Positions 14,691 through 50,297 of a stretch of 64,000 nt of DNA are shown in pieces (the stretch's first letter is position 1; each line of letters opens with the position of its first letter). The notes under the pieces were generated by a model. That model worked only from the letters and a program-made list of their open reading frames with translations. It searched no databases and had not been told where the DNA came from. The position numbers and the translations under genes are program-made. The stretch comes from Prorocentrum cordatum (lineage: Eukaryota > Sar > Dinophyceae > Prorocentrales > Prorocentraceae), in contig CAUYUJ010001485.1 in NCBI GenBank assembly GCA_963575745.1, forward strand, positions 1 through 64,000. The letters are read 5' to 3'.

Positions 14691-15888
14691 ATGCAATTGA
14701 GCGACAGTACGTGCCCAGCGGCCAAGCCGGCTGGGATGAGCAGACGGCCATCGCCGGCGGCCCAGCCGTCCAGCGCAGCGCCCGTTCTGGCCCAGTCCGA
14801 TTTGATGACTGTAGCGAGCGCGGCACCGTCAACATTGCGGGTGAGGGCTGCGCCGCAGCCGCAGCCTGCAAAACGGGGCGATGAAGAGAGTTGCTCAATT
14901 AGTGACAACCCGAAAGTAGGTGATTGCGCCACTTGTGGACGTCCGAGTTGCAAAGACCACTCTGATGTGAGTGCGAAACGGCGTTCTGAATGCCACTCAA
15001 AAGAAGAGTTTGCCGGCAGAGCTGGAGAAGTGGAATGAGCAATGGCGGCAACGCAGCGCTAATCGCGAATTTCGGGCTCAACAGCAGAAGCTCCTCGACG
15101 AATGTGACGCTGACAAGACAAATAGTAAGCGAACGATGGAACAGGCTGGAGAGCAGATTGGACTGAGCTCAGAAAGGTCAGGAGCCAACGTCCGAGAGGG
15201 AGATGAGGGCCTGACTAACGTAGCTACATTGGAGAAAGGCATGATGAACCTCAAAGCTATCATCACTAAGCCATTTCCATATAGTGAAAAGGGACAGGAA
15301 AGAGCGCCCACGTTAAATTCATTCGATGTGCCTTTGCTTTCACAAGAAACGCCTGTGAGGCCTGTTATGCGACCCAACTCTCCTGCCCCCGGCCCTGCAA
15401 TTGAAGGTCTGGCCAAGCCGAGCACCTCAGAACGCGGCTTGCCGATAAACATGAAGATGACAGGTTCCAATGAAGATGCTGGTTTCGTCAATTACCATCC
15501 ATTCTCTAGGGGCGGACCTGTGAGACCGCCAACGGCCAAGCCGTCTGGTGGGGCGGGACAAGACAAAGATGGGGATGGCAGGAGCGACGCGCCGAGTTCT
15601 GAGATTATGTCGACGCGTAATGGCGCTATCTGCGATCGGTCAGATAAGCCGCCTCCAGGGAGTCCGGGGGGACCAGGGTCCTCATATGGTCGAGGCGGTC
15701 GTGGCGGACCTCAGGGTCCAGGAAGGCCGCGTGACCCAGGGGGCCTTGAAGAGAGCACCCCGCTAGACCAGTGGAGGCAGGTTGGAAACAATCAGAAAGT
15801 TGAACTGATGGACATTCCCGATGTTACAGACATACGGGAGTGGCAGATGCATGCGATCCGCGCGATCGCTGGATCACGGAAGCCATGA
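14691..15888 (+). pseudogene. Copia gag-like region, N-terminal part (two frames)
   Basis: The frame of 14691-15038 has a Cys-pair segment (CATCGRPSCKDH) and then gives way to the frame of 14971-15888. The latter has a charged coiled-coil-like start (residues about 5-60, rich in E, K, Q), then a long low-complexity Pro/Gly part with a GGRGGPQGPGRP stretch. Position upstream of the protease and composition fit a gag or capsid precursor. No capsid fold can be asserted from sequence alone. Hairpins of family A at 14714-14735 and 15532-15544 translate here as AKPAG and AKPSG. Confidence 0.5.
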
Positions 15889-15903
15889 ACCCTGCGGTAG
15901 ACG

Positions 15904-16500
15904 ATGAACAACTCAAAGACCCAGGCCGCTTCCAGTCTTGACATGATGATTGCCGCAAGTTTGATTGAGAAGTCCAACGAGCTGCGCAGGAACCGCAGTC
16001 TGCCCAGTCACCACTTGCACTTCCTTCAGCAAACCACTCGAATGGAGTACGCTGCTCAGAATTTCGAGAGACTCTTGACGGGACGTGAGATGGTGCGAGC
16101 AATTTGCCACTGGTGTTCTGTTAGATCGGAATTGGGCCAACATCGAATTTCACGTGGTACCTTGAAGGTAGTCATTGACCCTCATAAGCCGGACGCTGAC
16201 CTATATCACTTTTTGTAATGGGTGGACAGCTGTTTACCAGCAACTGTATGGCGCCCGACCTCCATCCGATGTGATGAGAGTTTCGATTCACGCACACTTT
16301 ATCTAACAATGCAGGAAGCCGAAGAAGTTAGATTTCGTTTGCCAATTTTATGACCTTTCCAGAGATAAATTGGGACAGGGTGTGGAAACTTACGAATGGC
16401 TTATGGAGCAGATCGAAGCGATGATGTTGCGTGACAAAGAAGTGCGGGACAGAAGCGTGCACGAGAGTACTTGGAATCAGCGTGCAAAACAAATCTGATT
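15904..16500 (+). pseudogene. Copia gag-like region, central part
   Basis: 15904-16218 gives about 104 residues with helical segments (MMIAASLIEKSNELRRN, LHFLQQTTRMEY). After a stop at 16216-16218 and about 100 nt without a good frame, 16318-16496 resumes with YDLSRDKLGQGVETYEW. It probably represents one interrupted domain of the capsid precursor. No closer identification is possible. Confidence 0.4.
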
Positions 16501-16600
16501 GGGCGGAGGTGGAAGCACTGGCGATGACAACCGACGGAATGCCAACGGCTAAGCCGCTCCGGCAGAGGTAGCGGCACGTCGTGGGAAACCCACAGATGCG

Positions 16601-17250
16601 ATGCAGAGTGGCCTGACTAAGGGCGAGACGACGTGCAAGTTTGTACGCAAAGGTCAAACCTGCCCAAATGCGGGTCAAGGATGCACTTGCAGTCGTAAGA
16701 AGCCCACAGCTGCCGCATCGGCTCGGCCGGCTGCGGGTAGCAAGTCAGATGCCGCTCCGGCTCAGAACAAGAATCCCAGAGGGAGATCTGGAAAAACCCG
16801 AAGGCCGAGGCCCAAAGGGACGGGGCTTATCACAGACTCCGGCGGGGGGCCGCGGGAAAGGATCACAACGACGGAACAGGAGTCAGTCTAACCGTTTGCG
16901 CGGGAAGGAGAGCACGCTACCATGCTATGCTTATTCGCGCGACCCCAAAGGGCCCTCATGTTTCAAAGGCCTCTATAGTTTCTAGCGAAGGAGGAGACAG
17001 AAATCCCCCCTGCGGAACGTTTCGCCGCGAATGTCAGGAGCAGGCGAAGAATCTTGTAAATGTCCTGGCAAACTTCCTGCATCCTTTTTCCCGGGGCGCT
17101 ATCAAGCTGTGCTGGGGCGCCCCTCCTGGTAAAAGTTGCATCCGATCTCAGATGAGGGGTCGATGCAAGTTCCGCGTCCGATTTCACTCCTCTACTGAGG
17201 GGCCCGCCACCACTTGGAGGAGGGCGCGTCGCCACGACCTTTAAGAGTTG
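16601..17250 (+). pseudogene. Cys-rich, basic region before the protease
   Basis: 16601-16891 codes for a Lys/Arg-rich chain with CKFVRKGQTCPNAGQGCTC; the spacing of the Cys is not a standard CCHC knuckle. Downstream frames (16927-17244) contain another Cys/basic stretch. Position and composition suggest the nucleic-acid-binding end of gag. Frames change at least twice. Confidence 0.4.
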
Positions 17251-17289
17251 CCCTCGAGTGACAAAGACAGGTGGAAGTTCCCAGGATAG

Positions 17290-17870
17290 ATGCGCCGACA
17301 GATGTCTACTCAGTCGAGGGCGTCTGCTGTGGAGGCTCTGATCAGGGCGTCAGACCTGCAAGAAGAAGTCCAGCACCTCTGGTTGAGAGCCGAGGAGGGG
17401 GAAGAGGGCCCACGCGGCACAGCCGCTGCGGGATGCACAGACAGGGATGCTGCGTATCTTGGAGCCCTGAGCTTTATTATTGATACAGGGTGTGGGTACA
17501 TACTCATAGCCGAAAAGTACATTGAAAGTGCAGGCGCAATGGGATTTATTTGAAAGGTTCCGCAGTCGATCACTCTGAATACTGCCGGGGGAGAGTCCAG
17601 AGCCCTCGGTGCAGTTCGCATCGCATGCCCCAAGTTTAAAGGTGGTTGCGTGACGCCAGGCGCCAAGGCATTCCTGGGCAGCGCGGAAACAGCGGGAGGC
17701 CCTCCGCCCCGTGCTGTTCAGACTCGCGTGACTATAGACCTGCATACACATGAGCTGATTGGTAATCGCAGCTACGTTGACGGACGGCCGACTGAGATCG
17801 CGCCCGTTTTTTCCGTCCTCTGTAGACTCTGCGGATACCAGCACTTATTTTTACTATTCGCCTCGCAAGG
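17290..17870 (+). pseudogene. Copia aspartic protease (retropepsin), interrupted
   Basis: FIIDTGCGYILIAEKYI (about 17470-17520) contains the D-T-G active-site triplet preceded by hydrophobic beta-strand residues, as in retropepsins, which cut the polyprotein. A TGA at 17551-17553 interrupts the frame. After it the reading continues as KVPQSITLNTAGGESRALG, so the stop or a sequencing error breaks one domain. The expected C-terminal part is frameshifted after about 17650. Confidence 0.8.
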
Positions 17871-18051
17871 CTAGCGAATGCGGTTGGAGTCGGACACCGA
17901 CTGGTATTGCTGCCTATGAATGTCTCTCAACTTTGCCCTGCCGCGGCCAAGCCGCTGGTCAGAACAACGAGCAGCCCGGCGCAGCCGAGGCTTGCGCAGC
18001 CGCATATAAGAGCCTTGTTGGCATGGGGCCTCAGGGTACCTCCCCTATGAC

Positions 18052-18830
18052 ATGGGTCGAGGTTTGGATTCCAATGCGCGCGACGCGGCCCCCGGGCCCG
18101 AGGAGGGGGAAGTTGGAGACGCTGGCGATGTCGACTTGGTCGACGTCGACGCACCGCCAGAACCAGGCCCAGACGATGCAGAGGTTGAGGTGTCGGGCTC
18201 CCTTGCCGAGCGGCTCAAAACGGCCGCAGCCTCCCTGCCGCATCTCCTAACTCACACTCCCAAGAACCCATATTGCTCAATTTGCAATTGGGCCAAGGCT
18301 GTCAGAAAACAGCAGCGCAAAGCGCAAAACAAAGGGCTGGAGTATCCCCGCCCATGCGCTAACCCCACTTCGTTCGGACACCTGACGACGATGGACCATT
18401 GGTTTGCGATGGATGAACTCTCGCGGGGGCTCCACGATGAGACCGCGTGCGTGACATTTCGCGACCGAGCAGCGAATTTCTTTGCCGCTCAGGGTGTACA
18501 CGACAAGTCTGCGGCTCATGTTTGCAACTTTTTAGTAAACCTCAAAGCCCTGGGAGAAAAGTTAGAGCATTGTTGCACTGATGGTGCGCGTGAGCTTGCA
18601 AGGGCACGTTACGAGCTCAAGATTGCGCGCGATCCTACCATTCCAGGAAACAAGAAACATAACGCTGTCGCAGAACGCGCGAACGGCGTGGTACAGATGG
18701 GGGCCAGGGCGCTGCTCATGCAGGCTGGCCTCCCGCCACCAAATTGGACATATGCCGTCAGATATGTTTGTCTTTGCTGTGGTGCTAGGACCCCTGAAGA
18801 GGGGGAATCTATTTGGGAACGTCGTTTCGG
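18052..18830 (+). pseudogene. Copia integrase, zinc-binding region and catalytic core
   Basis: HLLTHTPKNPYCSICNWAK (18241-18297) is the zinc-binding pre-integrase segment. The rve core follows: first Asp in TTMDHW (codon 18394), second in CTDGARE (18580), Glu in NAVAERANG (18673). This D,D,E set would join the cDNA to host DNA. Second Asp to Glu spans 30 intervening residues, slightly shorter than the usual 35, so a small deletion is possible. The C-terminal helix QAGLPPPNWTYAVRYVC is typical of dinoflagellate copia. The frame is lost near 18790 and resumes in another. Confidence 0.9.
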
Positions 18831-19396
18831 ACACGTTCGATGCCCCGCTTCTTCCCTTTGGGCCCCTCGTGCGCTATGTGCCCCCGCCAGAGTCTAGATT
18901 TAGAACAGCCAAGACTGGAGGTGCGATGATCCCAGGGATTTACCTGGGGCACGTGCACAAAGCGGGGGGCATGGTTGGTCCAGAGAGCTACGTCGTGCCG
19001 TTGAGGCAACTGGGCGGACTTAATATGGAGTCGGGGCGCGCGCCCGAGGGCAATCGACCCACCATAGATAAGGCCGATCAAGTATACAGTGACATGTTGG
19101 GCGGCACTGCGGAAGATCAATCTCCTCAGTTTCCCCTGAGAAAGGCGTGCGAACAGGCAATGGCCGGGGTGCGTTCCGTCACAGTACCGCCTGAAGGAGA
19201 GGCCGCGGCCGTCCCAGACGGGCCGCGACAGGTGGCGGGAATGCGACCGGACAATCTGTTTGGCGCAGATGAGCCCGCCATTATCATGCCACCGCCTCTT
19301 CGAGAAGGCGAGGGCGCTCCACTCCGAGACTCCGAGGCCGATTCCGATGATGACGACGGTCCGGGGGGCTATGTGTGGATGACGAGCCTGCGATGA
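18800..19396 (+). pseudogene. Integrase C-terminal and linker region
   Basis: In the shifted frame the chain reads LLPFGPLVRYVPP, then RFRTAKTGGAMIPGIYLGHV and GPESYVVPL, the segment that follows the integrase core in dinoflagellate copia elements. It ends in an acidic DSDDDDGPGGYVWM stretch and a TGA at 19394. One frameshift relative to the core at about 18790-18830. Confidence 0.7.
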
Positions 19397-19399
19397 CTG

Positions 19400-20500
19400 A
19401 TGGTCGGGGCCCCCGGCGAGACTCTCACCCAGACGAAGACAAAGACAAGAAGTTGGGTCTCGCACGCATTGAGCACCGTTTGGATCGACAATCGAACTTC
19501 TCAGCGGCCAAGCCGCGTGAGAAAGTCCCGGGGAAAGGTCAGCTTACCTTGATGCGATGGAGCATTTTGATGACAGGCGTATTGTCGCCGGTCTGACGAC
19601 AGAAGAGTTGGCGCAAAAGCTCCCGTGGACAGGTCGTCGGAAAACGTGTGGCATACGAGTTGTACTCTATTATGGCCCTGACTGCCCCGGTGGCCCGAAT
19701 ATGGGTTACTGATCCAGATCCTAAATGCGGTGCACAGTGGTTGAAGAAAGCGCCGGAGCCCACCTGCCCTGGAATTTATCTCGGACGCTGGCTCAACATG
19801 AATCAAGCCCAACGTAGACAGGCGACCCAGGCCCTTGCCTTGGCCTCCTGCGCGACATTGGCTTGGGCGTGGATGATCCACCAACTCCGCCCGACCCCGC
19901 AGTGGCTCAGCCACCTGCGGCCCCTTCGGTCCCTGAGGAGACTGCTGCCTATCTTGCGGCACATCCTGAGGCGAGAAGAGCCGCGCCGTGGGACGCTGAG
20001 GTGCTTCGCCGATTGGAGGCACAGGGCGGCCGAGCCGCTGGTTGTAGCAGCCGAATCCTCTGAGGGCAACAATTCCGACGAATGACTTTCGGATGGCGCG
20101 GATGTGTGGTGGAAGCAAACATGGTTCGGTGGTGCCATGGCACGTGGCGGGGTTACCTCCGGCCCAGCCGGTAAGGACCCGGTATCCGATGATGATTCTG
20201 AGGAAGCATCAGAGGCAAGCTTGACCTCGAGTCCTGCGGCCGCCGCGTCGCGGCGAAGCGTGTTTCGGATGCCGCTGCAGAATAGTTCGGCCCCAGTGCC
20301 CAGTCATCGCGAAAAAGAGAGATTTGATTTGGAGTATTTTCACAACCCTTTTACATATGTCATTTCGGTTGTTCACGATCCATTCCAACTTCCTAATGAG
20401 TGGCAACATACCAAAGTTGACTCAGCCGTGGCTGGGTCAGTTTCCAAAGATGAGGCTAAGATGAATCAAGACGCCCAGGCCGCCTTGAGAAAATAATGGA
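19400..20500 (+). pseudogene. Linker between integrase and reverse transcriptase
   Basis: 19648-20085 contains a copia-like phrase CPGIYLGRW, which looks like a partial duplicate of the PGIYLGHV segment at about 18930. 20104-20496 has a Ser/acidic part and then ERFDLEYFHNPFTY. No enzyme motif. Family-A hairpins at 19498-19523, 20026-20038 and 20159-20171. Confidence 0.4.
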
Positions 20501-20706
20501 ATAGGTTGCGAGACACTGGCACTTGGAACGAGAAACGCGCCAAATAATACTCCGACGTCGTAGCAGAACTCAATGGACAGACCGCTCATTTTGGTCTTTT
20601 ATTTGCAATTCCCGTAGAGAAAAAATTCTGAACTGCCACCCGACACAAAGACCGGAAATACAAAGGGCGAGTTTTTTTCGACGATTCGAGTGTAAGGGGC
20701 CAGAAT

Positions 20707-21712
20707 ATGGATGTAGCGTTGTTCCGAGAACTTGCCAGCAGCCCTGCTACAATGCAGGCCAGCAAAGCAGCTGACACTTACGGACTCTTTGAAGGCCATA
20801 GTATTGAACAAGCGGATGCCCGCCAAGCTTATACTCACTCAAAGTTGGGCGGCACCCCTACATGTGTATTCCTACCCCCCGATGAATGGCCTAAAGAATG
20901 GTCGCATGTGCGTAATCCCGTATGTCCATTATATGTCTTTCAATGGACGCCCCGATTCGGGAGGATATTGGGGGCAACTCTGCGAAGGGCATGTTACGGC
21001 AAAAGGATTTGTAAAGTGCAGCCCGTGGCGCAGTTGCTACTTTCACAAGTACTTGAAGCTTTTCCAGGTAGTTTACGTTGATGATTTTAAGCTGTCTGGT
21101 CCTGCGGACAAGCTTGCTGAAGGGTGGAAGCTACTACGAGCCCCTTCTGACAATTTTCCAACAGGTATGGGAATTGACCCTCCAACCTCAGTCGGGCGAT
21201 ATTTGGGTTGTGAACGCAGACATTCTACACAGCTCGTCGAATGGCAAGGCGAGTTACCCGCTGTTTTGGACCCGCCGCCTCCTAAAACCAAGAAGAACGC
21301 CCCCGTCCAAGACGAGAGTAGCGAGGAGGAAACGGGGGGCGACTCGGCGGCCCAGCCGTCCGAGCCAGGCCAGCCGAGAGAACCCAGACGGGTCAGAGTG
21401 ATAGAATATGTCATGACTGAATTCTTCGAATCCTGTGTAACGCTATACGCACAACTCACAGATACTGACCCAGCTACATATCCCGCGGCGGGCGCCCCAT
21501 TCGGCCCTGAACTTACTGATCTCGAAGACGGCCAAGGCGGCCCTAGACGTGACAAGTGCTCTCCTGCAGAAGAGGCCATAGCTTCAGCGTTGCATGTTAA
21601 AGTTGACGTTGGACCCCCAGATCAGGAATCGAAGTTCACGGTCTTGATGCCGCGGCGGCCAGTCCCGATGACCCCGAGCCACCGACCCAGTCGGGAGTGC
21701 TCCAGCCCGTAG
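20707..21712 (+). pseudogene. Copia reverse transcriptase (RVT_2 type), one internal frameshift
   Basis: Motif A region EQADARQAYTHS (catalytic Asp codon 20815) is in one frame. At about 20935 the reading shifts and continues as NGRPDSGGYW, the copia GHPDSGG segment, then VVYVDDFKLSG with the YVDD catalytic box at 21074-21085. Downstream is a region with SVGRYLGCE, then a long acidic/Pro-rich insert and an EFFESC segment. It would copy element RNA into cDNA. One frameshift disables the copy as annotated. The family-A hairpin at 21343-21364 is inside the insert. Confidence 0.92.
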
Positions 21713-22653
21713 CGGCCAAAATCTTGATGAAGATCTTTTACGGGGCAAGAATGGTTCGATACTGCCTGCTCCGTGCAGTGTGTCACGCGGCCAGCTGCAT
21801 TGCCAAATGGACAGAGCAGCAAGACATGGATCTCTTCCGCCTCATTTGTTATATCAAGTGCACACCTCACGACCGCATGTCCTCGTGGGTAGGTGATAAC
21901 ATTGGTGATGTCTTGTTAAAGCAATACTCTGACGCGGACCTGGCCAGTGACATCAGAACACATGGGAGCACAAGCGCCAGTTATCAAGCACTCCGGGGCC
22001 CATGTACTAGAGCTGGGCAGTCTTTGGGATCACAGCGTCAAACGCGTGTTTCCCATCGCACTCTTGAGGCAGAAATTGTGGCTGCAGGCCTTGCATTAAG
22101 AAAAGAGCTGCTTGCAGCACTCCCACTGTGGGAAATATTGCTTGGGAGGGAAATCGGTTGCTTATTCCTAGAAGATAGCCAGGCTGTGTGTAAAGTCATC
22201 AAAGCTGGAGGGTCAATGAAGCTAATGCACTTACCGAGAACACCTCGTATTGACGCTGCAGCTGTCTCTGAACAATGTTCTCTGGGTATTGTCGAACTTC
22301 AATGTGAGAGGACCCAACGCGAAGGTGCAGACATCGGCACGAAGAGGTTCACATGCCCTTTGGCTTGGGTTAAAGTTTTGTACCTTGTCAACATTGTGGC
22401 TCCTAAATTCTGGGCCGCCAAGCGGTGCCAGGACTACCTAGATTCCACGTTTTCAGACGGACTTCCCCTGAAACCCGGAGGGATTTTGAAGCCCCGCTTA
22501 GGCCCGAGCTCGGCTTTGCGGAGAGGAGCTGCTGCACCTAGCAAGCAGATGAATACGAAGAAGAAGCGTCCCAACAAGGGCAAGCCCACTGTGCATTCTT
22601 CAACGCCAATAAGTACATCAGCGGCACCTGGTGGTGCACAACGCCCGGCTTGA
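21697..22653 (+). CDS. Copia RNase H domain with basic tail
   Basis: The ORF begins before the domain and overlaps the previous frame by 16 bases. The RNase H residues are visible: SDADLASD (Asp 21931), HRTLEAEIVAAG (Glu 22066), LEDSQAVCKVI (Asp 22174) and REGADIGTK (Asp 22330). It degrades RNA in RNA-DNA hybrids during reverse transcription. After about 22440 the chain becomes Lys/Pro-rich (NTKKKRPNKGKP) and ends at a TGA (22651). All four metal-binding acidic positions are present, so this part looks intact. Confidence 0.88.
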   Translation: MLQPVAAKILMKIFYGARMVRYCLLRAVCHAASCIAKWTEQQDMDLFRLICYIKCTPHDRMSSWVGDNIGDVLLKQYSDADLASDIRTHGSTSASYQALRGPCTRAGQSLGSQRQTRVSHRTLEAEIVAAGLALRKELLAALPLWEILLGREIGCLFLEDSQAVCKVIKAGGSMKLMHLPRTPRIDAAAVSEQCSLGIVELQCERTQREGADIGTKRFTCPLAWVKVLYLVNIVAPKFWAAKRCQDYLDSTFSDGLPLKPGGILKPRLGPSSALRRGAAAPSKQMNTKKKRPNKGKPTVHSSTPISTSAAPGGAQRPA

Positions 22654-22677
22654 ACGGAGGCTGCCCCCGGCAAAGCC

Positions 22678-23574
22678 GTGGGGGCAAACGCCCCCAGCCA
22701 AGCTGTGGTGGCGAATAATGCGCCCGGCAAAGCCGTGGAGGCAGGTATAAATACTCCTATTGTAACCGAAGAAGGTTCCAGAAGAAGCCCCGCGAAAACC
22801 AGAAAGATCGAGGAGATAACCAAGAAAAGCTCCGATCGTGAGATGAGAGCAATGTTTGACATTACCGACAGTGGGGCCGAATCGGATACATCAGCATTAT
22901 CAAAAGACATGTGTAGAGAACCTTCGAGCAAGGAGCCGGCAAAGCATAGGGGAGAAACGCCCGGCTACAACCTCCTCCTTCCTCATCTCCCTCCTGCTGC
23001 TGTTGCTAATTTCCAGGATAGAACAGACATGTGGACACGTTGCGGACAGAGTTTGAAACGATGGCACTTCGTTCCTAGACTTGTCACTTTCATGCCAGTA
23101 AGTACTGAATGCCCGATCGACCCGGACAGACTAGATGAGAGTCGCCGCACCTATGCCGTAAATACCCAGCATGGCATGACTATAGACCGCACGGATAGTT
23201 GGCGCGATGAAGATAGCAAGTATCATCGCCCATTCGAGCAGAACTTGAATGGCGATTCCAGTGATGGCGATTATCGTCCAAATCGGTGGACTGGATGGAC
23301 AGAATGCTGGATCCGGGAAGATTGCGCCCCGGCCACACAGTGGACCTGGGACAGACTCTTGCTAGAATACTGTTGTGGTCCTCACCGTAAGATAGGAAAT
23401 CCGAAGCATTTTGTCGATTGCTCGTGCAAGGTCATTCGATACACGGAGACAGAAGATATGAGGACCGATGAGGGAAGAAGGCTGGCTTTAAATGATATAA
23501 AACGTTTAAAGGAAAACGCATTAAATTATGGGGCTCCATGCCCTGTGCGGGAGGTTCCACCTGGCAGTATGTGA
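22678..23574 (+). CDS. Methyltransferase-like module, N-terminal part
   Basis: In the same frame as the RNase H ORF, 24 nt after its stop. The first 100 residues are low complexity with family-A hairpins (22663-22685, 22695-22705, 22722-22740 region). The conserved-looking part starts near 23280 and contains RLLLEYCCGPHRKIG (23356-23400), followed by an acidic CKVIRYTETEDM segment. The layout (hydrophobic-Glu-x-Cys-Cys-Gly, then a second acidic strand, then a PC loop in the next frame) resembles motifs I, II and IV of cytosine-5 methyltransferases. This is inference by pattern; the assignment needs a profile or structure search. The last residues before the stop are frameshifted. Confidence 0.5.
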   Translation: MGANAPSQAVVANNAPGKAVEAGINTPIVTEEGSRRSPAKTRKIEEITKKSSDREMRAMFDITDSGAESDTSALSKDMCREPSSKEPAKHRGETPGYNLLLPHLPPAAVANFQDRTDMWTRCGQSLKRWHFVPRLVTFMPVSTECPIDPDRLDESRRTYAVNTQHGMTIDRTDSWRDEDSKYHRPFEQNLNGDSSDGDYRPNRWTGWTECWIREDCAPATQWTWDRLLLEYCCGPHRKIGNPKHFVDCSCKVIRYTETEDMRTDEGRRLALNDIKRLKENALNYGAPCPVREVPPGSM

Positions 23575-26410: not shown

Positions 26411-26430
26411 TAGAAAGCGCGATTCAGCTG

Positions 26431-26997
26431 GTGGACGACGCGATCTCCCGTGCGGGGGGCGGGGCAATTATGATCATGTTTGTTGGCGGAGACCGCGCAT
26501 GCTGGAGGACCAACGGATCCGGGGCGAACAAAATGTGGAACGATGCCGCCACTCTCGTCAGGGCTAAAATGAACCAACGGATTGAAGGAGACAAAGCCAT
26601 GGGGATTGTCCCGCGTATAATGATTTTAGACGGTGTAAGGTTATACCGCAAGCTGCGGCACAAACCAGGGGATCTTTACCATGTTGCCCCTGAGCATGAC
26701 GATTACAAACTTGATAAGGGCGGGCAGATGGTGAAGGTCACCGCAGGAGAATTGCGCGCTGAGTACATGTTCAAGACTGCCAAGCTTGCTACATTGTTAT
26801 TTTGCCAACGCTCTGGCGGCTCAGCCGTCCAGGGGTGCAGCATAACAAGGGCGACGAGAGCTGACGGGTACACTGCGTAAGAGGCCGCCGTCGATGAGCT
26901 GGTCATGCACTGGCGAGACTGGAGCCCTGTGGAAGGCAGCGTGCCCAGGTCGGTGCTCAACGCACGTCCATTCGCAACAGCTTTGGATCGCAAGTAA
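26431..26997 (+). CDS. Unknown protein (remnant) with GGGAIMIMFVGGD strand
   Basis: The frame starts soon after the preceding stop and codes for a strand-rich start (AIMIMFVGGDRACW), a helical middle and LYRKLRHKPGDLYHV, ending at TAA (26878-26880); the same frame then stays open to about 26997. The family-A hairpin 26811-26834 is translated as GSAVQ. It could be a hydrolase-like fold but no catalytic set is clear. Confidence 0.35.
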
Positions 26998-27104
26998 ATT
27001 CCAGACGTCCAAGACGGATCTGGATGCGGACCCATCCGTTCATATTATTCCGAAGCGTTCGTTGAATTCTTGAAACGGGGGATGGCATATACGGACTTCT
27101 GCCC

Positions 27105-28188
27105 ATGGCATACTTCTTGCCGCGAGGTCCGAATTTCTGCTCAGGAATGCCCCCAAAGGGGACGCGTCTTCGATTGCCAAATGAAGGTGTACAAAACAAT
27201 GTTAACATGCGCATGGCAGTCGAACGATTGAAAAAGGCAGCACCTGCTAAGGCACCGAGCGGCTCAGCCGTTTCGTGTAGCGGTTCTGCACCGAGCGGCT
27301 CTGCCGCCTCGGAGAACACCGCGGCACTGGGCGGCTCAGCCGTTCCTAGTGGTTGCGCCGAGCGGCCCAGCCGTATCGGGTCGCGATGCACTCACGCGGG
27401 TGGCCCAGCCGTCCCGCGAACCTCTTTTGGCCCCAGCAACGGGAGTGCAAGAGGCCAAGACGCCTGGTGAGGCAGCGGAGGATTTCATCCGTGATAAGTG
27501 CCCTGTCGGAAAGTCGACAACGATCAGTCAAAAGTGCAAGTTCCCAAGACGTTTGAAGACAAACGCCGATCCTAACAGCAGCGAGGAATGGGAATTGGAT
27601 TGGCCCTACCATTTGCCATGACAAGCAACGAAGAAGTTGTCCTGCAGAAGTGCGGCTGGTCAAGCAGCAGTTGAGCATGATTTCCTCCGACCGTTTACGA
27701 TAGCGAGCGGTGAGCTCCGCAGAGGTAGGATGCGTAATAATGAGTATCCGGGGGAGGAAGGCCATGTCGCACGGATTGCAAACGGGGAAAATCCGCCCCG
27801 CAGCAAGGAGTTCAAGATGATTCAGAGGGCCGCAGGTGGACAAGCGTGGTTGGCCTTGCAGATTCTGCAAAAGTCCACGAAGACCCCAGTCTTGGAACCA
27901 AATTTTGTCGTTTCCAATTGGGCACGTTTCTTCAAGGTAAAGGCTGACTGGTCGCGGCCGGACCCGAAATCTACTGTCGCTGATCGCCTGAACTGGGCGA
28001 AGATGTCCACGAGGGCCCAGAGAGCGGGTCTTAATCATTGCGTTCAACTCGCTTTGCCTCTCTACGCCACAGACAGAAAAGCTTGCGGAGGTCCAAGACC
28101 AATCCACAGGCTGGACAAGACAGTCCCATGGTACGCCCGTGACCGCGCTTCATTCAATTTTGGAGGGCCATCAGTTGCTTCCATCTAA
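27105..28188 (+). pseudogene. Low-complexity Ala/Ser/Pro segment plus unknown domain
   Basis: 27240-27420 contains five family-A hairpins within 180 nt (27258, 27291-27312, 27331, 27359, 27395-27418), translated as repeated SGSAV/GPAV in different frames. The frame 27349-27621 then gives a basic domain start (CPVGKSTTISQKCKFPRRLK). 27637-28188 gives about 180 ordinary residues including FVVSNWARFFKVKADWSRP. No family. Confidence 0.4.
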
Positions 28189-28217
28189 TCCAAAACGGAG
28201 GCAGCGTCAAGCAAAAC

Positions 28218-29543
28218 GTGATTGGAGTGCGATCTTTTCTTTGTACTGACAATTCTCCGACTCACACAGTGTACTCTGTTGCAGAGGAGACTTTCGGGGA
28301 TGGCATTTGGATCGCTGCCGAGGTTGTTTTCTTTTCGAGAAAGCCAGCTCTCATCCGAGGAAAACCAGATCAGTACGTTAGTGACCCGACGGGCATTGTG
28401 CTGCATGAGCTCCGGCTGTATCATTGGGCACCAGCAGCGCCCCATGTCACGCCGGCTTACGTTTTCTTGCATCACATCGCCAGACAGAACAACTGATGTC
28501 TGGAGCAAGACTTCGGAGTCGAACGGTCTCGCGACGAGGCAAGGGCGGCTGCCGCGGACCATGTCCGGGAGGCACAGAAATAATGGGTCCCGACTTTGGG
28601 GCCGATCGAGTGGCAAAGCGGCCAGAGTCCATACTCCGACGACGATAGGATTGATGACATTTGGTCGTGGTTTCACCAGAAAGGAGTCAAACTAACCAAG
28701 ATCCATCCGCTGCATAGAGATGAGGCGCCAATGGAGTCCAAGAAGCTTATCCAATATTATCAAGATGAGGTGGACAGAGCCAAGGCACCTGCTGCTAGGG
28801 CACCAGATAAGGCGCTGGCGGCCAAGCCGTCCGGCACATCTCTTTCCCTTGATGCCGAGAACTTCCCGAGTCTAGGGCAGCTTTCGCCTCGCGCTGGGAG
28901 GGCGTTCAAGCCTCCGCCTGGCAAAGCCGTGGCGGAGGCTTGGCCTCCACTCCCCAAGACTAATGCGCCTGGCAAAGTGCCGACGCCCCCTCCTCCTCCG
29001 AAGGAGTGGCCGGCAGCAGGAGGGCTGAGGGAAGTCATCCCGAAGAGAGCCCTTCCGCCGCTCAGTGCGACGATGTCGCCTCCGGCAGCGAAGCCGAACG
29101 TTGCGCAGTCGAAGGGCTCGCCCTTGGCGAAGGCGGAGATGCCCAAGAAGCCTCCGCCTCCACCTCGCCACGGTCCTGAGACAAGGTTACCGAAGCCTCC
29201 GCTGGCTAAGGTGGCTCGCCTGGACACGGGAGCTGATGACTTATCCACGCCCCCAGTGGCGCAGCCGCCGGCCAAGCCGGGAGGCGCGGGAACAGCGGGC
29301 GACCCGCCTCAAATTTGGAAACCGAGTCTTCGCGAGCCCCCCGCCGCCGTGGCTAACCTTGCCAGGTGGAATGTCAATCGTGCTTCGCAAACTGACCGAG
29401 ACCAACAGAAGGCAAAGCCCCCGCCTAGGGAACCCTCCCAGCGTGCCCAAGGCAGCGCTGGAACGGACCTGACTGCACAGGAGGATATCCTGTCGCAAAG
29501 GCGAAAGCAGTGGAGACGAAAGCCAGAGCCGCCGAGGATGTAG
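28218..29543 (+). CDS. Pro/Ala/Lys-rich protein remnant
   Basis: Short frames to about 28600 lead into 28596-29543 (315 residues). Its start is acidic and aromatic (DDRIDDIWSWFHQKGVKL). From 28800 it is a low-complexity Pro/Lys/Ala chain with repeated PPP blocks. The family-A hairpins 28814-28835 and 28908-28941 (the longest found, outer arms of 11 bp) fall inside. Extensible, disordered protein is likely; no enzyme motif. Confidence 0.45.
28908..28941 (+). repeat. Longest family-A hairpin
   Basis: Outer arms of 11 bp (28908-28918 with 28931-28941) are perfectly complementary; inner GGC-AAA-GCC; T/GT between them. It lies in coding sequence translated PPPGKAVAEA. Confidence 0.9.
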
Positions 29544-30902
29544 GCGCGACACGCCACGAAGGCGCCGAAGAGCATAACATCCCCAAGGCAGCTCCTCCGA
29601 CGCAATCGGATGGATACCCATCATCAGAGGAGTCACTTGTGCCAACAGGGACCGAGGAGGTGGCTATCATCCTCAGGATCCTCCAAGAAGTCTCTAGGAT
29701 ACAATTCTCGGGCAAGACAGCGCGCGACAATCTGAGGAAAGAGAAAGAGTTCTTTTAATGGTGGCGTCGAACCGCTGCTGACTGGCCACAAGAGCACGGG
29801 TGCCCCGAGGATGCGATATGTGAAATTTCATCGTATATCGCGACAGCAAGGGGGCTCTACTTGAGGGTCAGCGAAAAAGGTAGACACGACCCGGGAAACT
29901 GCTCGTATGCTTGGAGGAAATTGGAAGGCGCTGTTGTCGAACAGATCCGTAAACTTGTGCCAGAGTTCGCTTCTACTGCTATGTTCGCCGGTCAGAGCGA
30001 GTCGTCGCAGCCTAAGGCAGAAGGTATACCCGTTGCGACTGGAAGCAGACTTCCTACTCCACCCGCTCCTCCGTCCGGCCCAGCCGTGACAGAGGGCCTT
30101 CCTCCGCCTCCGCCTGGCCCAGCCAAAGTGGAGAACAAACAGGGGAAGGAAATTGAGGCAATGGCAGGCTCGGGCGCTGATGCCGTGGCACCTGGTGTTG
30201 TAGCCCGAGAGCCTGCATAATCTTCGCCTACTAAAATAGAAACGCCTGCAGAGGGAGATGCATCCGCGGCTCAGGCGCCATTGTCTGATGCCGCTCTAAG
30301 CGGACATCAGGCAGCGGAGCCTACGCCCGCAGGTCAAGGGCCGGGTGCCCAAGGCATTCCGGGATCCCTTGAGGCCGACAACGATCTGATCCAGGCCAAT
30401 GAGTTTCCGTGCTCAGCGGATCCTGAGCACATCACCACGGAGGAAGAACACTATCGATCGGGTCTAGCATCTTTCAACTTCTTTTGCAGAGAGAGTTTGC
30501 CACCTGCCCCAGACAAACGGCAACGTCCACCAACGAACGTTCTGCCACAAGAGGATGAAGAGGATATTATTGTTGGGCATGCGAACTACTTCACAGACAA
30601 AGAGCTTTACATTTCGCATGATGAACGCCCCCAAGTCATCCAGCGTACACCTTGCTATGAGGCAGAAGATTCGAGAGGCCCATATGACTGGGCCCGTTCC
30701 TCCGCATGTCGAAGCTGTTCGCAACCAAAGGGAGAATACGCTCATATATGTAGCAGAGATCGTTGAGGGTCCTAAATTTGCATTATTGGGCAAACTTAGC
30801 AGGGATGACGGTACGTCTGGCCAGGCGCGAGAGTTTCTCCGTGCTGAATTCCACTCCGATGATATTCCGGAAGGATTTACCCCTCAGCCCTTTAATGCCT
30901 GA
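29510..30902 (+). pseudogene. Coding remnants, acidic/Pro-rich
   Basis: Frames 29510-29758, 29861-30220, 30281-30766 and 30690-30902 follow each other. The parts from 30281 include NDLIQANEFPCSADPEHITTE, a helical SGLASFNFFCRES and, after a slip at about 30700, TLIYVAEIVEGPKFALLGKL. One long protein broken at least three times is the simplest view. No domain. Confidence 0.35.
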
Positions 30903-32586
30903 AACCATTAGTAGTTGGGGTCGATGGTCATAATAATCCGGCTGCCCTAGGCAGCGCGGACTTCTGGAGACCCCAAAGTTACAGAGTACCCGAGCTTGCT
31001 CTGCATATCGGTAATTGCGCAGCATATCTAGCGAGGCATTGTTCGGATTGCGCGAGGTCCTCGGGAGGCTGGGTCTATTTCGGCGACCTAGTTGGAAAGG
31101 TCGCCGAGGACGGATTCAGCTATCAGACATTTGCCCTCGATGCACGCGGCCTAGCCGCGTTGCAACCAGTGACTGTGGAGGTACTTGGGGTGTGCCCTGC
31201 TGACAGTGGTAGCATCGATGGAAGGAAAGTCCACGACATGTGGAAAGACTACACGGCATGGCCCCATCAAAAGAGGGAGAGGAGTGCAGTTCCGATTCCT
31301 TTGTTGCTTCTATTGAGAGAATGCATGTCCCACATGACCCTGGCCAAGCCAGGAGTCACGGGCCTCTTCTTCATATCACCGACTCGCAGACACTGTTGGA
31401 GTCAACAGTCGGGGAAGTCCAGTTCCCAGAAAGAGACTCGGGACTTTGTCTCGAGGCAGATTACGACTTGCTGAGGCTTCTTCCGACCAAGAAGAACCCG
31501 GTCATGCGAGAGGCAGATCACCTTCCTTCGTGGCTCAGCCAACGGAGGTATGGTGAGACTTTCCCCGCAAGGGAGTTTGCGGCCATGGAAATGCTGCGCA
31601 ACCAGGAGAGCCGCTATCGGTCGGAGCATGGCCCGCAGAGGACGCAGTCCGTCTGTGGGATTAGCTTCCAAATCGGAGGGATTCCTGGCCGTTAATTATT
31701 GTTTTCGACGGCCGGGTTCTCGCCCGCTTTTCGCACAGGATTTGCCAGGATGGGACTCTTGTGTCCCGCGAAGTGCCGAAGTTCACTGACATGGGCAAAG
31801 CCGTCAGCCTTGTTAAAATAGGAGACTCGCAGGACCCTAGAGACAAGCAGATCTCTTGGTACATAGTTTTCAACCATGAGCGGGCGTCGTACGAGGTGGA
31901 TTTTAACAACAACCCGATGCTCGGATGGATTCACACGGATGAGACGCTGTCTTTGATCCCGAACCGCATGCCTCCATTGCCGCCCGATGCGCAAAAAACT
32001 CGTCCAATCGATCCCATGGAGGACGGACGACGGGCGGTTCCTGTGCGCTAATTTTCACTGGGTGAGGACTGGCTTTGGGCATTTTCCCTCCTGCAGCAAT
32101 CCGATCAATTTCGCATACAGGGATGCCCACGATTACATGCTCCAGACATGGAACAGGGAGGTTATTCCGAGGTCCCTCGTGGGACATGGAATTTTGTTGC
32201 ATGCCAATGATTCCCACGAGTTTCCTGATGATCGCGCTGGTTGGACTGGTGCGCGCGTGAGACGACAGAATCGAGCTTCTTGTGATATACAACAGCAACA
32301 ATAATATCTGCAGCAAGAGCGCAAGTGGGCAACAAGGACTCAACATTTACGATTGGCCGCTTCAGGACAAACTTTTGGAAACAGTCGGACAGGCAGTTAT
32401 CCTGCCTGGATCCCAGACCACGCCGCGGCCCAGCCGCCGGCGCGCCACGGTCCTTTCTTCCAGTACCTCGAGCCTCTGAAGAGGAGATTCATTAAGTGGC
32501 TCGCACACCTGGCTGGAAGACAGAGGACAGGAGTTCCTCGGATCGCAGACTGGTGGCCGTTGCTTTGGGCAACGGACCTCGATTAG
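30903..32586 (+). pseudogene. Coding remnants, globular segments in alternating frames
   Basis: 30903-31290 has no ATG but is fully open and well composed (PLVVGVDGHNNPAALGSADF, then WVYFGDLVGKVAEDG). It slips at about 31275 into 31240-31695. Then 31761-32051 (FTDMGKAVSLVKIGD) and 31987-32304 (FLCANFHWVRTGFGHF) follow. The family-A hairpin 31141-31164 lies inside the first frame and 32421-32442 in the last. No family recognised. Confidence 0.4.
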
Positions 32587-32598
32587 TATGCGCGCCCG

Positions 32599-34122
32599 AT
32601 GTCATGCCCTGCCCTGGCCGCTTTTGAGTGGCCAGGGCCCCCCGACGATCTTCATGCACCAATAGACGGTTGGGACAGATGGGAGCGCACAATGAACGCT
32701 CAGAGAACCTTTGTGCCGACGCTGGAGACATTGGAAAACGCAAGGGCTGGGGCAGCGCCATGGCTGCCCATTGAACAGGACAATGCAATGGACACCGCAG
32801 GGCACACCCCTCGTGGACGTCCACCAGTTGCCTGGGCAGATAGTTTTGTGGCACGGCCCCGCCGTGTTGCACGGTCCGTTACCGGGCGTGTTCATTTGTT
32901 TTCTGACCACCGTCTGGTTTCGGAACTTGTCCAATCTGCCGCCGGTCAAACCGAGACGGCAGGTGAGGAGAACTTACAAGTGACGCCAGACTTCATTCCA
33001 GTTAGCGGGTCCAAGGCCGAGTTGATAATCGAGGGAACAATTGATCTCGATCAACTTGATGGGTACACATACTCGCACTGCGAAGATAGTTCGTTGAGTA
33101 TTACATTGGCCCAACTCGAAGCCAAGGCAGTGGTTGCACAGTGCGTTATGGAGTACCACAGTTTCCGCCCGGGTACAACAGATCCCAACATATTACGACT
33201 GTCGGGTGAAATGACGCATGAAATCTTGGATATTGTTCGTAACGTCATTGATGGGAACTGGAAAGTTCCAGTTTCGGAAATGCAATTGGGTCTTCGTATA
33301 ATGCGCGTGATTGCCATCGTTCGTGAGATCGTCAGTAGCTTTATTGTTGAGGGGCATTGTATTGCGTACCCCGGGAATACCGCTCCTGCCCAGGGCGGGA
33401 GCTCAGACCGCGCGGAGGATAAGCGACGGAAGGACGGATGCGCTCTTGACTGTCGCATTCGTGCTGCGGTTCACACGGGCGAATTCATCGAGGAATGGGC
33501 CCGTAATTTGGGTAGACAGGTCCGCGCAAACATCCGTCGTCAGGGCGCAAAGTTGCAGGGGGCCATTCATTGGCTCCTAGAGAACTGCGAAGACGAGGAT
33601 ATGGAACTACAAGATAAGGTTGAAGGACTCTCTCGTGCTGCGCGTGGAAGATTTGGCATCTCTGTTGCCACCGCTGCAAGAGAAATTATTCGATTCATTC
33701 GGGACCGAGGGGCGACAATTGGTGAGAATGAAGGCACCGCTGGGCCACCAGACAGCCAAGCTGATCTTGGGGGGGCCGACGAACCAGATGACTTGCCGAA
33801 GGCGAGACCAACTCCGCCACCTCCACCGCGCAGACCCGACTTCCAAGACGATCGGACACGCGACGAGGTCACTGAATCTCCGTATTCTGCCAGCGGCCCA
33901 GCCGTTTCGGCAGGTGAAGAGTACTCGTGGTATTCGTCGGCTGACCCACGGGATTTGTCCAGACAGCCCCGCGCGCGCGAGGGGGCCATGGATGTCGGCC
34001 GCGGCGCTGCTGGCTACGACCCGCAGGTCCACTGCCCGCGGTTCGCAAATGACGTCCAGGATGGATACTGCGTCCATCGTGACCGCATCTGGTGGTTGAC
34101 CGATAATATCTGGTGGCCATGA
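32599..34122 (+). CDS. Intact 507-residue unknown protein, last coding unit of the copia-linked region
   Basis: The only long uninterrupted ORF in 24-34 kb. N-terminal 120 residues are mixed. The middle (33000-33720) is helix-rich, with ITLAQLEAKAVVAQCVMEYH and MQLGLRIMRVIAIVREIVSS, and has a possible amphipathic coiled-coil or gag-like alpha-helical character. The C-terminal third is Pro/Asp-rich and disordered, ending in a Trp-rich DRIWWLTDNIWWP. Family-A hairpin at 33887-33913. It begins MSCPALAAF at ATG 32599; the upstream frame is different. Function unknown. Confidence 0.6.
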   Translation: MSCPALAAFEWPGPPDDLHAPIDGWDRWERTMNAQRTFVPTLETLENARAGAAPWLPIEQDNAMDTAGHTPRGRPPVAWADSFVARPRRVARSVTGRVHLFSDHRLVSELVQSAAGQTETAGEENLQVTPDFIPVSGSKAELIIEGTIDLDQLDGYTYSHCEDSSLSITLAQLEAKAVVAQCVMEYHSFRPGTTDPNILRLSGEMTHEILDIVRNVIDGNWKVPVSEMQLGLRIMRVIAIVREIVSSFIVEGHCIAYPGNTAPAQGGSSDRAEDKRRKDGCALDCRIRAAVHTGEFIEEWARNLGRQVRANIRRQGAKLQGAIHWLLENCEDEDMELQDKVEGLSRAARGRFGISVATAAREIIRFIRDRGATIGENEGTAGPPDSQADLGGADEPDDLPKARPTPPPPPRRPDFQDDRTRDEVTESPYSASGPAVSAGEEYSWYSSADPRDLSRQPRAREGAMDVGRGAAGYDPQVHCPRFANDVQDGYCVHRDRIWWLTDNIWWP

Positions 34123-34447
34123 ACGTGGCGCATACTGTCTTACACGGACTACAACCGCTACTTCCCGACGAAGGGGAAAGAGATGAATAACCAAGACAAG
34201 CACAACAGAACAGCGAATCACGCTGGCCGGGGCAAGGGATTTAGATCCCGCTCGCCCCGTGGGAAAGATTGCGGACAGGGAGGCTCGTCGTCATCGCATC
34301 CGAGGCCTCCGACTCCGCCGTCGAGAGACAGTATTCCATGGGATAATCTGAGTTAGGCCAAGCCCGCGTGACTTCGTCATTGCAGGAATGACCGATCGAC
34401 AAAGTCGCATCGGTTGTGAGAGCTCCACCGATCGACAAAGTCGAACC
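34123..34447 (+). other. 3' tail of the copia-linked region with two CGAC-AAA-GTCG hairpins
   Basis: Noncoding beyond the 507-codon ORF. Two copies of ACCGATCGACAAAGTCG lie at 34391 and about 34427. Each core CGAC-AAA-GTCG is a compensatory variant of the family-A core, and the first copy has a 6-bp outer stem with a bulged C. This is the last place where family A is seen, so it may mark the right edge of the element. Confidence 0.5.
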
Positions 34448-34689
34448 GACGGAGAGAATTTATTTAACTAATGGTGGGGGTCGTCGGGCCTCTTCGGCCC
34501 TCAGTCCCCTGGCAGCCGCCGTTGAGCTGTAAAACTTTTTGCGGTTGGCTCCGGTGGTTGTACATATGTGCAGGCCGGGGGCATTGTGGCTGGATGGGCC
34601 CTGCGAGGCCCGCCGCGGGGGGAGTAAATATTCGGCCGGATGGCGATGGGGGGATCAGGACATGGGGGGATGAGAATCCGGTACCGTTT

Positions 34690-43838: not shown

Positions 43839-43849
43839 TCGAGGCAGTT

Positions 43850-50288: not shown

Positions 50289-50297
50289 GTGTTCGCT

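Follow-up and report, generated by a model that had tools for sequence, protein, structure and literature searches.

In a window of 64,000 nucleotides of Prorocentrum cordatum DNA (contig CAUYUJ010001485.1, positions 1 to 64,000 of the forward strand), a copia-like retroelement carries about fifty copies of a short hairpin along its sense RNA, most of them within coding sequence. The locus raises the question of what such an array does, and whether it acts as RNA, as DNA or as a mobile unit of its own. A preliminary description had reported more than 30 cores with complementary outer stems, confined to 14.7-34.4 kb, and this holds up, more strongly than had been claimed. The plus strand of the window holds 42 GGCNNAGCC cores, 41 of which are located at 14720-34356. 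A covariance-model search of both strands of the entire window with filters off gave 69 matches, and the best one outside the region (9769, minus strand, 14.4 bits) ranked only 48th.

The carrier of the hairpins extends over 14600..35250 on the plus strand (5' end approximate), as delimited by homology with relatives and by domains recognised by eye. Its 3' homology reaches 34631, where an insertion of about 300 bp that is specific to this copy interrupts it, and continues from near 34950 to about 35250. Inspection by eye of the same strand identified a Gag-like stretch with a cysteine-rich CKFVRKGQTCPNAGQGCTC motif (15940..16700), an integrase-like ORF with H..C..C, D, D and E motifs (18010..18900), a reverse transcriptase-like ORF with YVDDFK (20717..21712) and an RNase H-like ORF (21607..22653; 116 scored genome matches including itself), and a 3' ORF of unassigned function follows (32587..34122; 86 genome matches including itself). 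The Ty1/copia order of protease, integrase, reverse transcriptase and RNase H is a matter of motifs seen by eye: Pfam gave no match for the integrase-like, reverse transcriptase-like and RNase H-like ORFs, and the PDB gave none for the integrase-like ORF and one meaningless match (E 0.85) for the RNase H-like ORF. Single-sequence structure models were unusable (pLDDT 42 and 39). Long terminal repeats were not found when 11.0-15.2 kb was compared with 33.8-38.5 kb, which yielded only simple arrays and homopolymers, and the copy may be truncated; the element is therefore called copia-like only. Relatives of the RNase H, middle and 3' ORFs occur on common contigs in the same order, about 11 kb from first to last, so that the earlier proposal of one very long element at 14.6-34.4 kb is borne out to the extent that this DNA belongs to one long family. 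The element is probably copia-like and roughly 20 kb in length.

In each hairpin, an inner stem of some 4 bp, most often CGGC/GCCG, carries a three-base NMA loop that is closed by C-G and ends in a nearly invariant A, and the outer stem varies in sequence, being usually about 5-7 bp long and at most about 13. Beyond the hairpin itself no sequence is conserved, and Rfam gave no match at gathering score within the window. Among 54 candidate stems (41 canonical cores and 13 added for their hairpin-like look), 46 had at least four of six outer Watson-Crick pairs. The single unpaired 3' base described previously was present in 35 of these 46, with 2 nt unpaired in 10 and 3 nt in one. The remaining eight were all canonical. 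Three outer pairs were formed at 20028 (20021..20045, covariance model), at 20161 (20154..20178, better in relatives and found in 20/26) and at 27261 (27254..27278, within a five-copy cluster, covariance model); two at 24333 and 31794 (24326..24350 and 31787..31811, covariance model) and at 29258 and 29411 (29251..29275 and 29404..29428, called in 0/6 relatives); and one at 34356 (34349..34373, covariance model).

All sites lie on the plus strand. Hairpins with canonical cores found by the covariance model are located at 14713..14737, 14752..14776, 15404..15428 (a low score, 16.4 bits), 15527..15551, 16540..16564, 17409..17433, 17938..17962, 17971..17995, 19499..19523, 19897..19921, 24233..24257, 24380..24404 (the top score), 24411..24435, 25007..25031, 25135..25159, 25549..25573, 26811..26835, 27326..27350, 27357..27381, 27395..27419, 30070..30094 and 30109..30133. 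Outside its training set, the model recovered 16713..16737 (loop TCG, 17.0 bits), 19204..19228 (inner stem GTC/GAC, 19.0 bits), 25417..25441 (GAC/GTC, 15.5 bits), 27290..27314 (loop TCT, 18.4 bits) and 30340..30364 (GCC/GGC, 16.4 bits), and it scored a candidate at 30937..30961 with 10.5 bits. Two further hairpins have inner stems GTC/GAC (27000..27024) and GCT/AGC with loop CTA (30281..30314).

Other sites were followed into relatives. The hairpin was found at 21342..21366 (compensatory CTCAG/CTGAG) in 23/28, 22409..22433 (inner stem CGC/GCG) in 27/29, 22662..22686 in 25/27, 22689..22714 (AGC/GCT) in 16/24 with four more carrying an indel through the core, 22719..22743 in 19/26 and 23327..23351 (CAC/GTG) in 23/27. 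The hairpin at 28813..28837 stands at the same place in six relatives and passed the cut-off in five; 28906..28943, the long stem near 28908 previously noted as 11 bp, is real, has the longest outer stem and likewise passed in 5/6, and 29263..29287 and 29438..29462 (GCC/GGC) were found in 5/6 and 4/6. Further downstream are 31141..31165 (12/18), 31335..31359 (19/20), 31525..31549 (22/23), 31634..31658 (GAC/GTC, 20/24), 32420..32444 (23/25), 32937..32961 (GGT/ACC, 20/25), 33888..33912 (25/26) and, 3' of the last ORF, 34391..34415 (GAC/GTC, 17/23). Relatives also revealed or supported sites at 32801 (32794..32818, 21/25), 33009 (33002..33026, 19/25) and 33841 (33834..33858, GTC/GAC in relatives, 23/26), all uncalled in the window copy, at 33754 (33747..33771, 11.0 bits, AGC/GCT and GGC/GCC in relatives, 24/26) and at 34434 (34427..34451, a repeat of the hairpin at 34391..34415 that is weak in the window copy, 22/24).

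The pairing is far from what shuffled flanks produce. With 41 cores chosen on the core alone, and flank positions 2-6 aligned with one 3' base unpaired, Watson-Crick pairs filled 132 of 205 cells, versus 73.8 +/- 6.1 with shuffled 3' flanks (z 9.5), and seven alternative registers gave z values from -1.1 to 2.6. In the 41-row alignment, both-side changes occupied 74 cells (32.6 +/- 4.9 in shuffles) and covariation was 0.400 (0.155 +/- 0.020), neither value being reached in 500 shuffles; the count of pairs showing any double change, an uninformative measure, was 7 versus 6.7 (350/500 shuffles). The outer stems thus covary as had been described around a GGC/GCC core, but the inner stem usually has 4 bp and covaries too. 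Cores with two changes that kept all inner pairs had an outer stem in 16/29 cases, versus 2/33 for cores with a single uncompensated change (p 4e-5), which indicates that inner stems, where they differ, usually change in compensated pairs.

The genome (4.1 Gb) holds many relatives of the element that carry the hairpins, which were found in 58 of 58 relative loci cut around two of its ORFs. Taken genome-wide, the bare core shows no enrichment (470,285 forward occurrences versus 467,398 of the reversed pattern). At 20 sites picked for ortholog comparison, 420 of the 497 relative copies had retained the fold in position, and double Watson-Crick changes filled 78 cells, versus 30.3 expected; parsimony placed 27 compensatory double-change events among the relatives. 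Loop base 3 was A in 505 of 517 rows. Mean conservation was 0.87-0.99 in the stems and 0.98 at loop base 3, compared with 0.78-0.88 in the flanks and 0.78 both at loop base 1 and at the unpaired position, and hence tracks the structure. Indels through the nine-base core, the part to which the count was confined, occurred in 16 of 541 cases. Across 60 loci, the window's two included, 228 cores with an outer stem were in sense and 19 in antisense orientation. Parsimony further gave 101 G-U versus 53 A-C events across relatives (p 1.4e-4), from which a role at the RNA level, one of the possibilities raised earlier, is inferred; counting against it, 87 events were further mismatches, and G-U and A-C shared by at least two rows numbered 25 and 13 (p 0.07, suggestive only). 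On this comparative evidence, the hairpin is a conserved sense-strand RNA structure that evolves in place, mostly within coding sequence.

The overlap with coding sequence was assessed by 300 synonymous-codon shuffles that kept protein and codon usage over the 14.4 kb called coding by a frame model. Shuffling left 4.3 +/- 1.8 cores (maximum 9), versus 29 in the real sequence, and 1.0 cores with an outer stem, versus 24. Hairpins in coding sequence occupy two main reading phases, and at the seven sites where the loop coincides with a codon, that codon ended in A in 182 of 187 rows, versus 67 expected from codon usage. These data agree with the earlier view that the constraint acts on the nucleic acid and does not reflect a protein motif.

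Any RNA-level role would fit the present evidence. The array suggests that the RNA of the element bears a repeated recognition signal, perhaps for packaging. The best explanation, in which our confidence is evenly divided, is a conserved cis-acting hairpin on the sense RNA that would be read by one protein, Gag, for packaging. One RNA-binding protein may recognise the loop A and the bulge at many sites together; that protein would be the element's own putative Gag, and the array could then select, compact and co-assemble an unusually long genomic RNA of roughly 20 kb, much as dispersed packaging signals are proposed to do in single-stranded RNA viruses. As with such signals, many stem-loops with a common motif and degenerate stems are spread across the genomic RNA, and structure is conserved over sequence, at the 20 picked sites and among relatives many of which may be defective copies. 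We hold more tentatively, somewhat short of even confidence, that about fifty bulged NMA-triloop hairpins form a genome-long assembly code, read by Gag, that packs a roughly 20-kb RNA in a cellular retroelement family. Several observations count against the best explanation. Covariation contributes little to the RNAalifold energy (-0.49 of -8.31 kcal/mol), and predicted local RNA folds have inner pairs with P >0.5 in 26 of 41 sense and 21 of 41 antisense copies. In Ty1, the sequences required for packaging are found in the 5'-terminal 580 nt, and transposition is not significantly affected by internal deletions of up to 5 kb (PMC4974528).

Alternatively, the hairpins may be conserved RNA sites through which a protein of the host or the element acts in some other way: in controlling translation, in export or localisation, in RNA stability, or in protecting the RNA from RNase III or small-RNA machinery or making it their target. 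We consider this less likely than not. The structural and evolutionary evidence fits it equally well. However, control elements are normally present in one or a few copies, and about fifty copies from end to end in coding sequence would be unusual for one; binding of the genome therefore fits better. A precedent for such other purposes is the decay factor Roquin, which binds small triloop hairpins and reads their stem largely by contacts independent of sequence (PMC5603727).

That the structure acts in single-stranded DNA (cDNA), in reverse transcription or at integration, as do recombination hairpins that have extrahelical bases, appears very improbable. G-T and A-C mismatches are equal in the window copy (G-U versus A-C, 10 versus 10 isolated; 17 versus 16 in another count), and DNA is predicted to fold as well as RNA (27 versus 26 of 41 with P >0.5), but the excess of G-U across relatives speaks for RNA, and fifty internal sites would make little sense for one integration. 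The preliminary description had also proposed a miniature element spreading by insertion inside its host, which we regard as very improbable and as largely refuted. It accords with neighbour spacings below 45 nt (13 versus 6.5 expected for 56 uniform positions), tandem units at 22663-22743 and similar ones at 27251-27375, the lack of conservation outside the hairpin, and the core indel at 22696 in four relatives. Insertion-spread is nevertheless unsupported, because the sites are fixed among relatives, core indels are few, orientation is one-sided, and neither target-site duplications nor conserved ends of the hairpin were found (longest match mean 2.15 versus 2.21 +/- 0.17 permuted, 41 stems); the compensatory changes, moreover, took place in situ. 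In a linker-rich ORF, 0/6 cores were interrupted in six relatives, with two indels nearby. The preliminary description had named a lack of insertion polymorphism as grounds for refutation, and the outcome speaks against mobility: clean presence/absence at orthologous sites was not found among the relatives compared. Highly improbable are tiny introns, introner remnants, and translational bypass or frameshift signals. One frame change occurs in the window near 25142, and Amoebophrya introners resemble the present hairpins as inverted-repeat structures of variable sequence in a dinoflagellate, but they are introns with direct repeats at their boundaries (PMC7789003), whereas such repeats were not found at the hairpin edges. 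By inspection, frame changes do not track hairpins, and the 3' ORF matches at full length without a stop in several relatives, through sites such as 32944 and 33895. Finally, A-K-P and G-K-A motifs recur and the region is GC-rich, but chance, codon bias or a recurring protein motif has practically no likelihood, being ruled out by the shuffles that kept protein and codon usage and disfavoured by an outer stem in 33 of 41 cores here versus 107 of 718 among the 120 viral loci listed (of at least 120, each chosen for two nearby cores).

Whatever the function, fifty conserved RNA structures that overlap coding sequence in one mobile element are unusual, and the array is a candidate for a new RNA-protein recognition pair. 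Dispersed packaging signals in known viruses are hard to prove because single copies vary so much. Here, the idea of a packaging code is directly testable because the copies are many, can be recognised from both sequence and fold, and recur in numerous related copies in the genome. If true, it would hint at how a retroelement much longer than Ty1 holds its RNA together, and would be, to present knowledge, the first dispersed code of its kind in a retroelement; we know of no earlier one, and none was found in the titles and abstract openings of the literature searched.

Among known systems, the Rickettsia palindromic elements are also many short dispersed hairpins, inside genes; they are described as invading or inserting, whereas here sites are fixed and stems differ by compensatory change. 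The decay element bound by Roquin has its own loop rule and is not known to have a conserved 3' bulge. It resembles the present hairpins, for which protein binding is putative, as a protein-bound triloop hairpin, but is known from 3' untranslated regions (PMC5603727). The repetitive hairpin-forming elements of sponge mitochondria are likewise many, short and dispersed, but are described as invading or inserting, in contrast to the fixed sites and compensatory stem changes seen here (PMC2800124). The packaging and dimerisation signals of Ty1 and Ty3 are, similarly, cis-acting RNA structures in LTR-type retroelements; they lie near the RNA ends, whereas the present structure repeats throughout the coding region (PMC4974528, PMC5454406). 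Closest to the proposed array are the packaging signals of MS2 and other single-stranded RNA viruses, with many stem-loops per RNA, variable stems, and a loop motif combined with a bulge, (x)xYA with a bulged A in MS2 and NMA here (PMC6281560). Unlike these, the hairpins described here, known from sequence alone, have a three-base loop and a 3' bulge of variable identity, are readily recognised by sequence, and are carried by a retroelement.

The repeats constitute a conserved structural RNA motif that has evolved in place; a hairpin recurs roughly every 400 nt along a copia-like element some 20 kb long (approximately 14600..35250, plus strand). The plus strand of the whole window contains 42 copies of the core GGCNNAGCC, 41 of them between 14720 and 34356. 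This agrees with the preliminary description, which had reported more than 30 GGC-NNA-GCC cores, restricted to 14.7-34.4 kb, with complementary outer stems that differ in sequence and leave one base unpaired on the 3' side. The pairing was borne out when all 41 copies, chosen by the core alone, were taken together, with 3' flanks exchanged between copies as the control: with a single 3' base left unpaired, flank positions 2-6 were paired in 132 of 205 cells, compared with 73.8 ± 6.1 after shuffling (z 9.5), and seven alternative registers of the same copies gave z values of -1.1 to 2.6.

The fold is established by covariation. In the gap-free alignment of the 41 rows, covariation was 0.400 vs 0.155 ± 0.020 and double-change cells numbered 74 vs 32.6 ± 4.9, values as high being reached in none of 500 shuffles for either measure; the real number of further pair types was reached in 4 of 500 shuffles, and pairs showing any double change were no more numerous than in shuffled alignments (7 vs 6.7). 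RNAalifold, unaided, returned the same bulged fold, with a small covariation term. A covariance model, which the preliminary description had proposed, was scanned over both strands of the whole window with filters off and yielded 69 hits with E values of 10 or less; the top hit outside the 14.7-34.4 kb region came at rank 48 (14.4 bits), below eight plus-strand hits that had not been part of the training set. Ten of the 13 minus-strand hits within the region mirror plus-strand hairpins, and the other three (29342, 14837 and 28928) are weak and mirror none. Rfam gave no match within the window.

The hairpin shape is stricter than originally described. Among 54 candidates (the 41 canonical copies and 13 extra hairpins picked by eye), 46 have an outer stem with at least 4 of 6 Watson-Crick pairs, and the unpaired stretch of these stems measures 1 nt in 35, 2 nt in 10 and 3 nt in 1. 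Of the 41 plus-strand cores in the region, 33 fit the 3'-unpaired model (at least 4 pairs) and 6 the 5'-unpaired model. As a baseline, 107 of 718 cores reached the level of at least 4 pairs in 120 listed viral loci, each chosen for two nearby cores; a two-hairpin pattern search of viral contigs revealed no array like that of the element among these 120 stretches, on 10 of which the covariance model was run. The inner stem covaries as well: an outer stem accompanies 16 of 29 two-change cores that keep all inner pairs and the loop A, vs 2 of 33 cores with one uncompensated inner change (p 4e-5), and 4 of 39 compensated two-change cores elsewhere in the window. Chance palindromes are ruled out by the flank register test and the compensated inner stems.

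Of 56 canonical and added cores, 42 fall inside coding stretches of the frame model, where core starts occupy codon position 1 in 23 cases, position 3 in 18 and position 2 in 1; the scarcity of the third phase is predicted by codon usage. A protein motif and codon bias are both ruled out by synonymous-codon shuffling of the coding stretches (300 shuffles), which yielded 4.3 ± 1.8 canonical cores vs 29 real ones, and 1.0 core with an outer stem vs 24. Where the loop coincides with a codon (seven sites), A is the final base of 182 of 187 codons, compared with 67 expected from the codon usage of the window for the same amino acids. No link between frame changes and hairpins was seen, as judged by inspection alone.

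Relatives of the element were sought in the genome (4.13 Gb, 21,875 contigs, the window being on C1485), across which the nine-base core taken by itself shows no enrichment (470,285 forward matches vs 467,398 for a reversed control pattern). The RNase H-like ORF (21607..22653) had 116 scored matches among 4470 first-look candidates, itself counted, the others being 75-84 per cent identical; the 3' ORF (32587..34122) had 86 matches including itself, at 50-84 per cent identity, and the middle ORF (28584-29543) had 126. Some contigs carry relatives of all three ORFs in the same order as the window, about 11 kb from first to last, among them C17569 (181072, 188137 and 192271), C45 (18678, 25800 and 29876) and C12370 (217439, 223992 and 228252). 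The long architecture thus characterizes the whole family, which upholds the long retroelement of the preliminary description. At the 3' end, homology reaches 34631 in most of 26 relatives and resumes at about 34950, continuing to about 35250, so that approximately 300 bp specific to the window copy interrupt it. This stretch (34632-34950), missing from the 26 aligned relatives, contains a C run and a palindromic TACAATTTGTACC-like unit that is present several times, and looks like a nested miniature element. Approximately 12 kb of coding sequence 3' of the RNase H-like ORF (22650-34120) has many relatives in the genome, and the ORFs scanned within it had no significant match to Pfam. The enzyme and Gag names used for the element were assigned by eye; Pfam and PDB searches with its ORFs gave nothing usable, AlphaFold models of two single ORFs were too poor in quality for use, comparison of the flanks of the element revealed no LTRs, and no relatives were found in viral contigs (five ORF queries) or prokaryote genomes (one query).

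The hairpins are conserved among these relatives and belong to the sense strand. At least one canonical hairpin occurs on the sense strand of the element in 58 of 58 relative loci taken from the matches to the RNase H-like and 3' ORFs and in the window's own two, and cores with an outer stem, summed over the 60 loci, number 228 sense vs 19 antisense. Comparison of orthologous sites, also suggested by the preliminary description, revealed hairpins at the same places, not in every row (30 and 27 rows; loci L162, L174 and L176, whose scores equal those of a neighbour, were treated as duplicates and excluded). With a strict cut-off, the hairpin was present at 21349 in 22, at 22669 in 25 and at 22696 in 5 of 30 rows, and at 32427 in 23, at 33895 in 24 and near 31391 in 6 of 27 rows. 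Twenty sites were picked from the relative alignments plus the window list, leaving out those near 31391 (6 rows, window included) and 34374 (4), 22169 and 34385 (2 each), single-row calls, and two cores of the window copy that have no outer stem, 31787 and 34349. Pairwise mapping gave 541 relative-site cases, of which 497 were usable, 26 were not covered, 16 had a core indel and 2 were near a locus end. The fold, defined as a Watson-Crick or G-U inner stem plus at least 4 outer pairs, was kept in 420 of the 497 usable copies, a proportion valid for the picked sites only. Five sites (32801, 33009, 33754, 33841 and 20161) form a good hairpin in most relatives and are weak or uncalled in the window copy, where they are natural single-site losses. 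For the middle of the element the comparison drew on six relatives, and for its 5' third on none. In the proline-rich ORF 28584-29543, where insertion would be easiest, six core places are uninterrupted in the six relatives; between or beside them, a 27-nt stretch is missing from the window copy and one relative has a 6-nt insertion. Cores 29258 and 29411 are without an outer stem in all six, which shows that not every match to the core is a hairpin.

Besides an RNA signal, the preliminary description had raised the possibility of a miniature element spreading inside its host element. Local duplication did contribute to the array (e.g., 22663-22743 and 27251-27375). No target duplication was seen (2.15 vs 2.21 ± 0.17 permuted), no conserved sequence was found outside the hairpin, the orientation is one-sided and the sites are fixed in relatives; these findings are all contrary to mobile insertion, which we therefore reject.

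Some of the changes within the hairpins preserve pairing. Over the 20 sites, Watson-Crick double changes occupied 78 cells vs 30.3 expected under independent columns, cell counts that are not independent because the rows are related, and parsimony assigned 27 compensatory double-change events on FastTree trees inferred from these loci with the hairpins left in. Examples are CTCGG/CCGAG to CTCAG/CTGAG at 21349, GGC/GCC to GGT/ACC at 33895 and GGC/GCC to AGC/GCT at 33754. Base pairs were dropped when their commonest Watson-Crick type fell short of 40 per cent of rows, or of 35 per cent in one analysis. Single changes gave G-U in 101 events vs A-C in 53 (p 1.4e-4), and a further 87 events were mismatches of other kinds; among relatives, distinct types numbered 59 vs 36 (p 0.02), and types common to at least two rows 25 vs 13 (p 0.07). 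This excess of G-U over A-C indicates that the fold acts in sense-strand RNA. Within the single copy of the window, G-U and A-C are equal (10 and 10, or 17 and 16 by another count), which speaks against RNA but is outweighed by the larger relative set; mutations after the death of a copy would add both equally. Neutral decay of formerly perfect hairpins, suggested by this equality, was dropped on the data from relatives. Mean conservation tracks the fold, at 0.78-0.88 in the flanks, 0.87-0.99 in the stems, 0.78 at the unpaired position and 0.78, 0.87 and 0.98 at loop bases 1, 2 and 3, the last being A in 505 of 517 rows.

Elsewhere in the window, 38407-45438 looks like a non-LTR retroelement, with endonuclease and reverse transcriptase motifs recognized by eye and no Pfam match in four ORFs, and 50196-53090 is a gag-like frame of 964 aa whose CCHC zinc knuckle falls below the Pfam cut-off (E 0.0023); the canonical core is absent from both. 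A 1598-aa open frame (57495-62291) joins an RNA 2'-phosphotransferase (Tpt1/KptA) domain and a RING finger. An 11-base GGGGCCTCTTG-like unit forms arrays that flank the element (13947-14116 and 35859-36084) and recur at about 11.7, 54.2 and 55.8 kb, TCA-rich long arrays with CGGGACACCGG units occupy 47206-49524, and a 91-bp perfect tandem duplication lies at 12854-13037.

With regard to function, the likeliest mode of action is that one protein reads the loop A and the bulge, largely indifferent to the letters of the stem; at a further remove, the predicted reader is Gag, which would select and compact the genomic RNA. The hairpins may alternatively have a regulatory or RNA-stability role. A literature search of titles and abstract openings found no description of such a hairpin motif, and neither "hairpin" nor "stem-loop" occurs in the main text of a review of dinoflagellate genomes (PMC11453091) in which Ty1-copia elements are mentioned. 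For the putative reading by Gag, the nearest described design is the dispersed packaging signals of RNA viruses: that of MS2 has a (x)xYA loop and a bulged A (PMC6281560). Ty1 counts against a packaging role, as its packaging sequences are placed no more than 580 nt from the 5' end, with the interior largely dispensable, whereas the hairpins here run throughout the element; the same review allows that scattered sites may add to packaging (PMC4974528).
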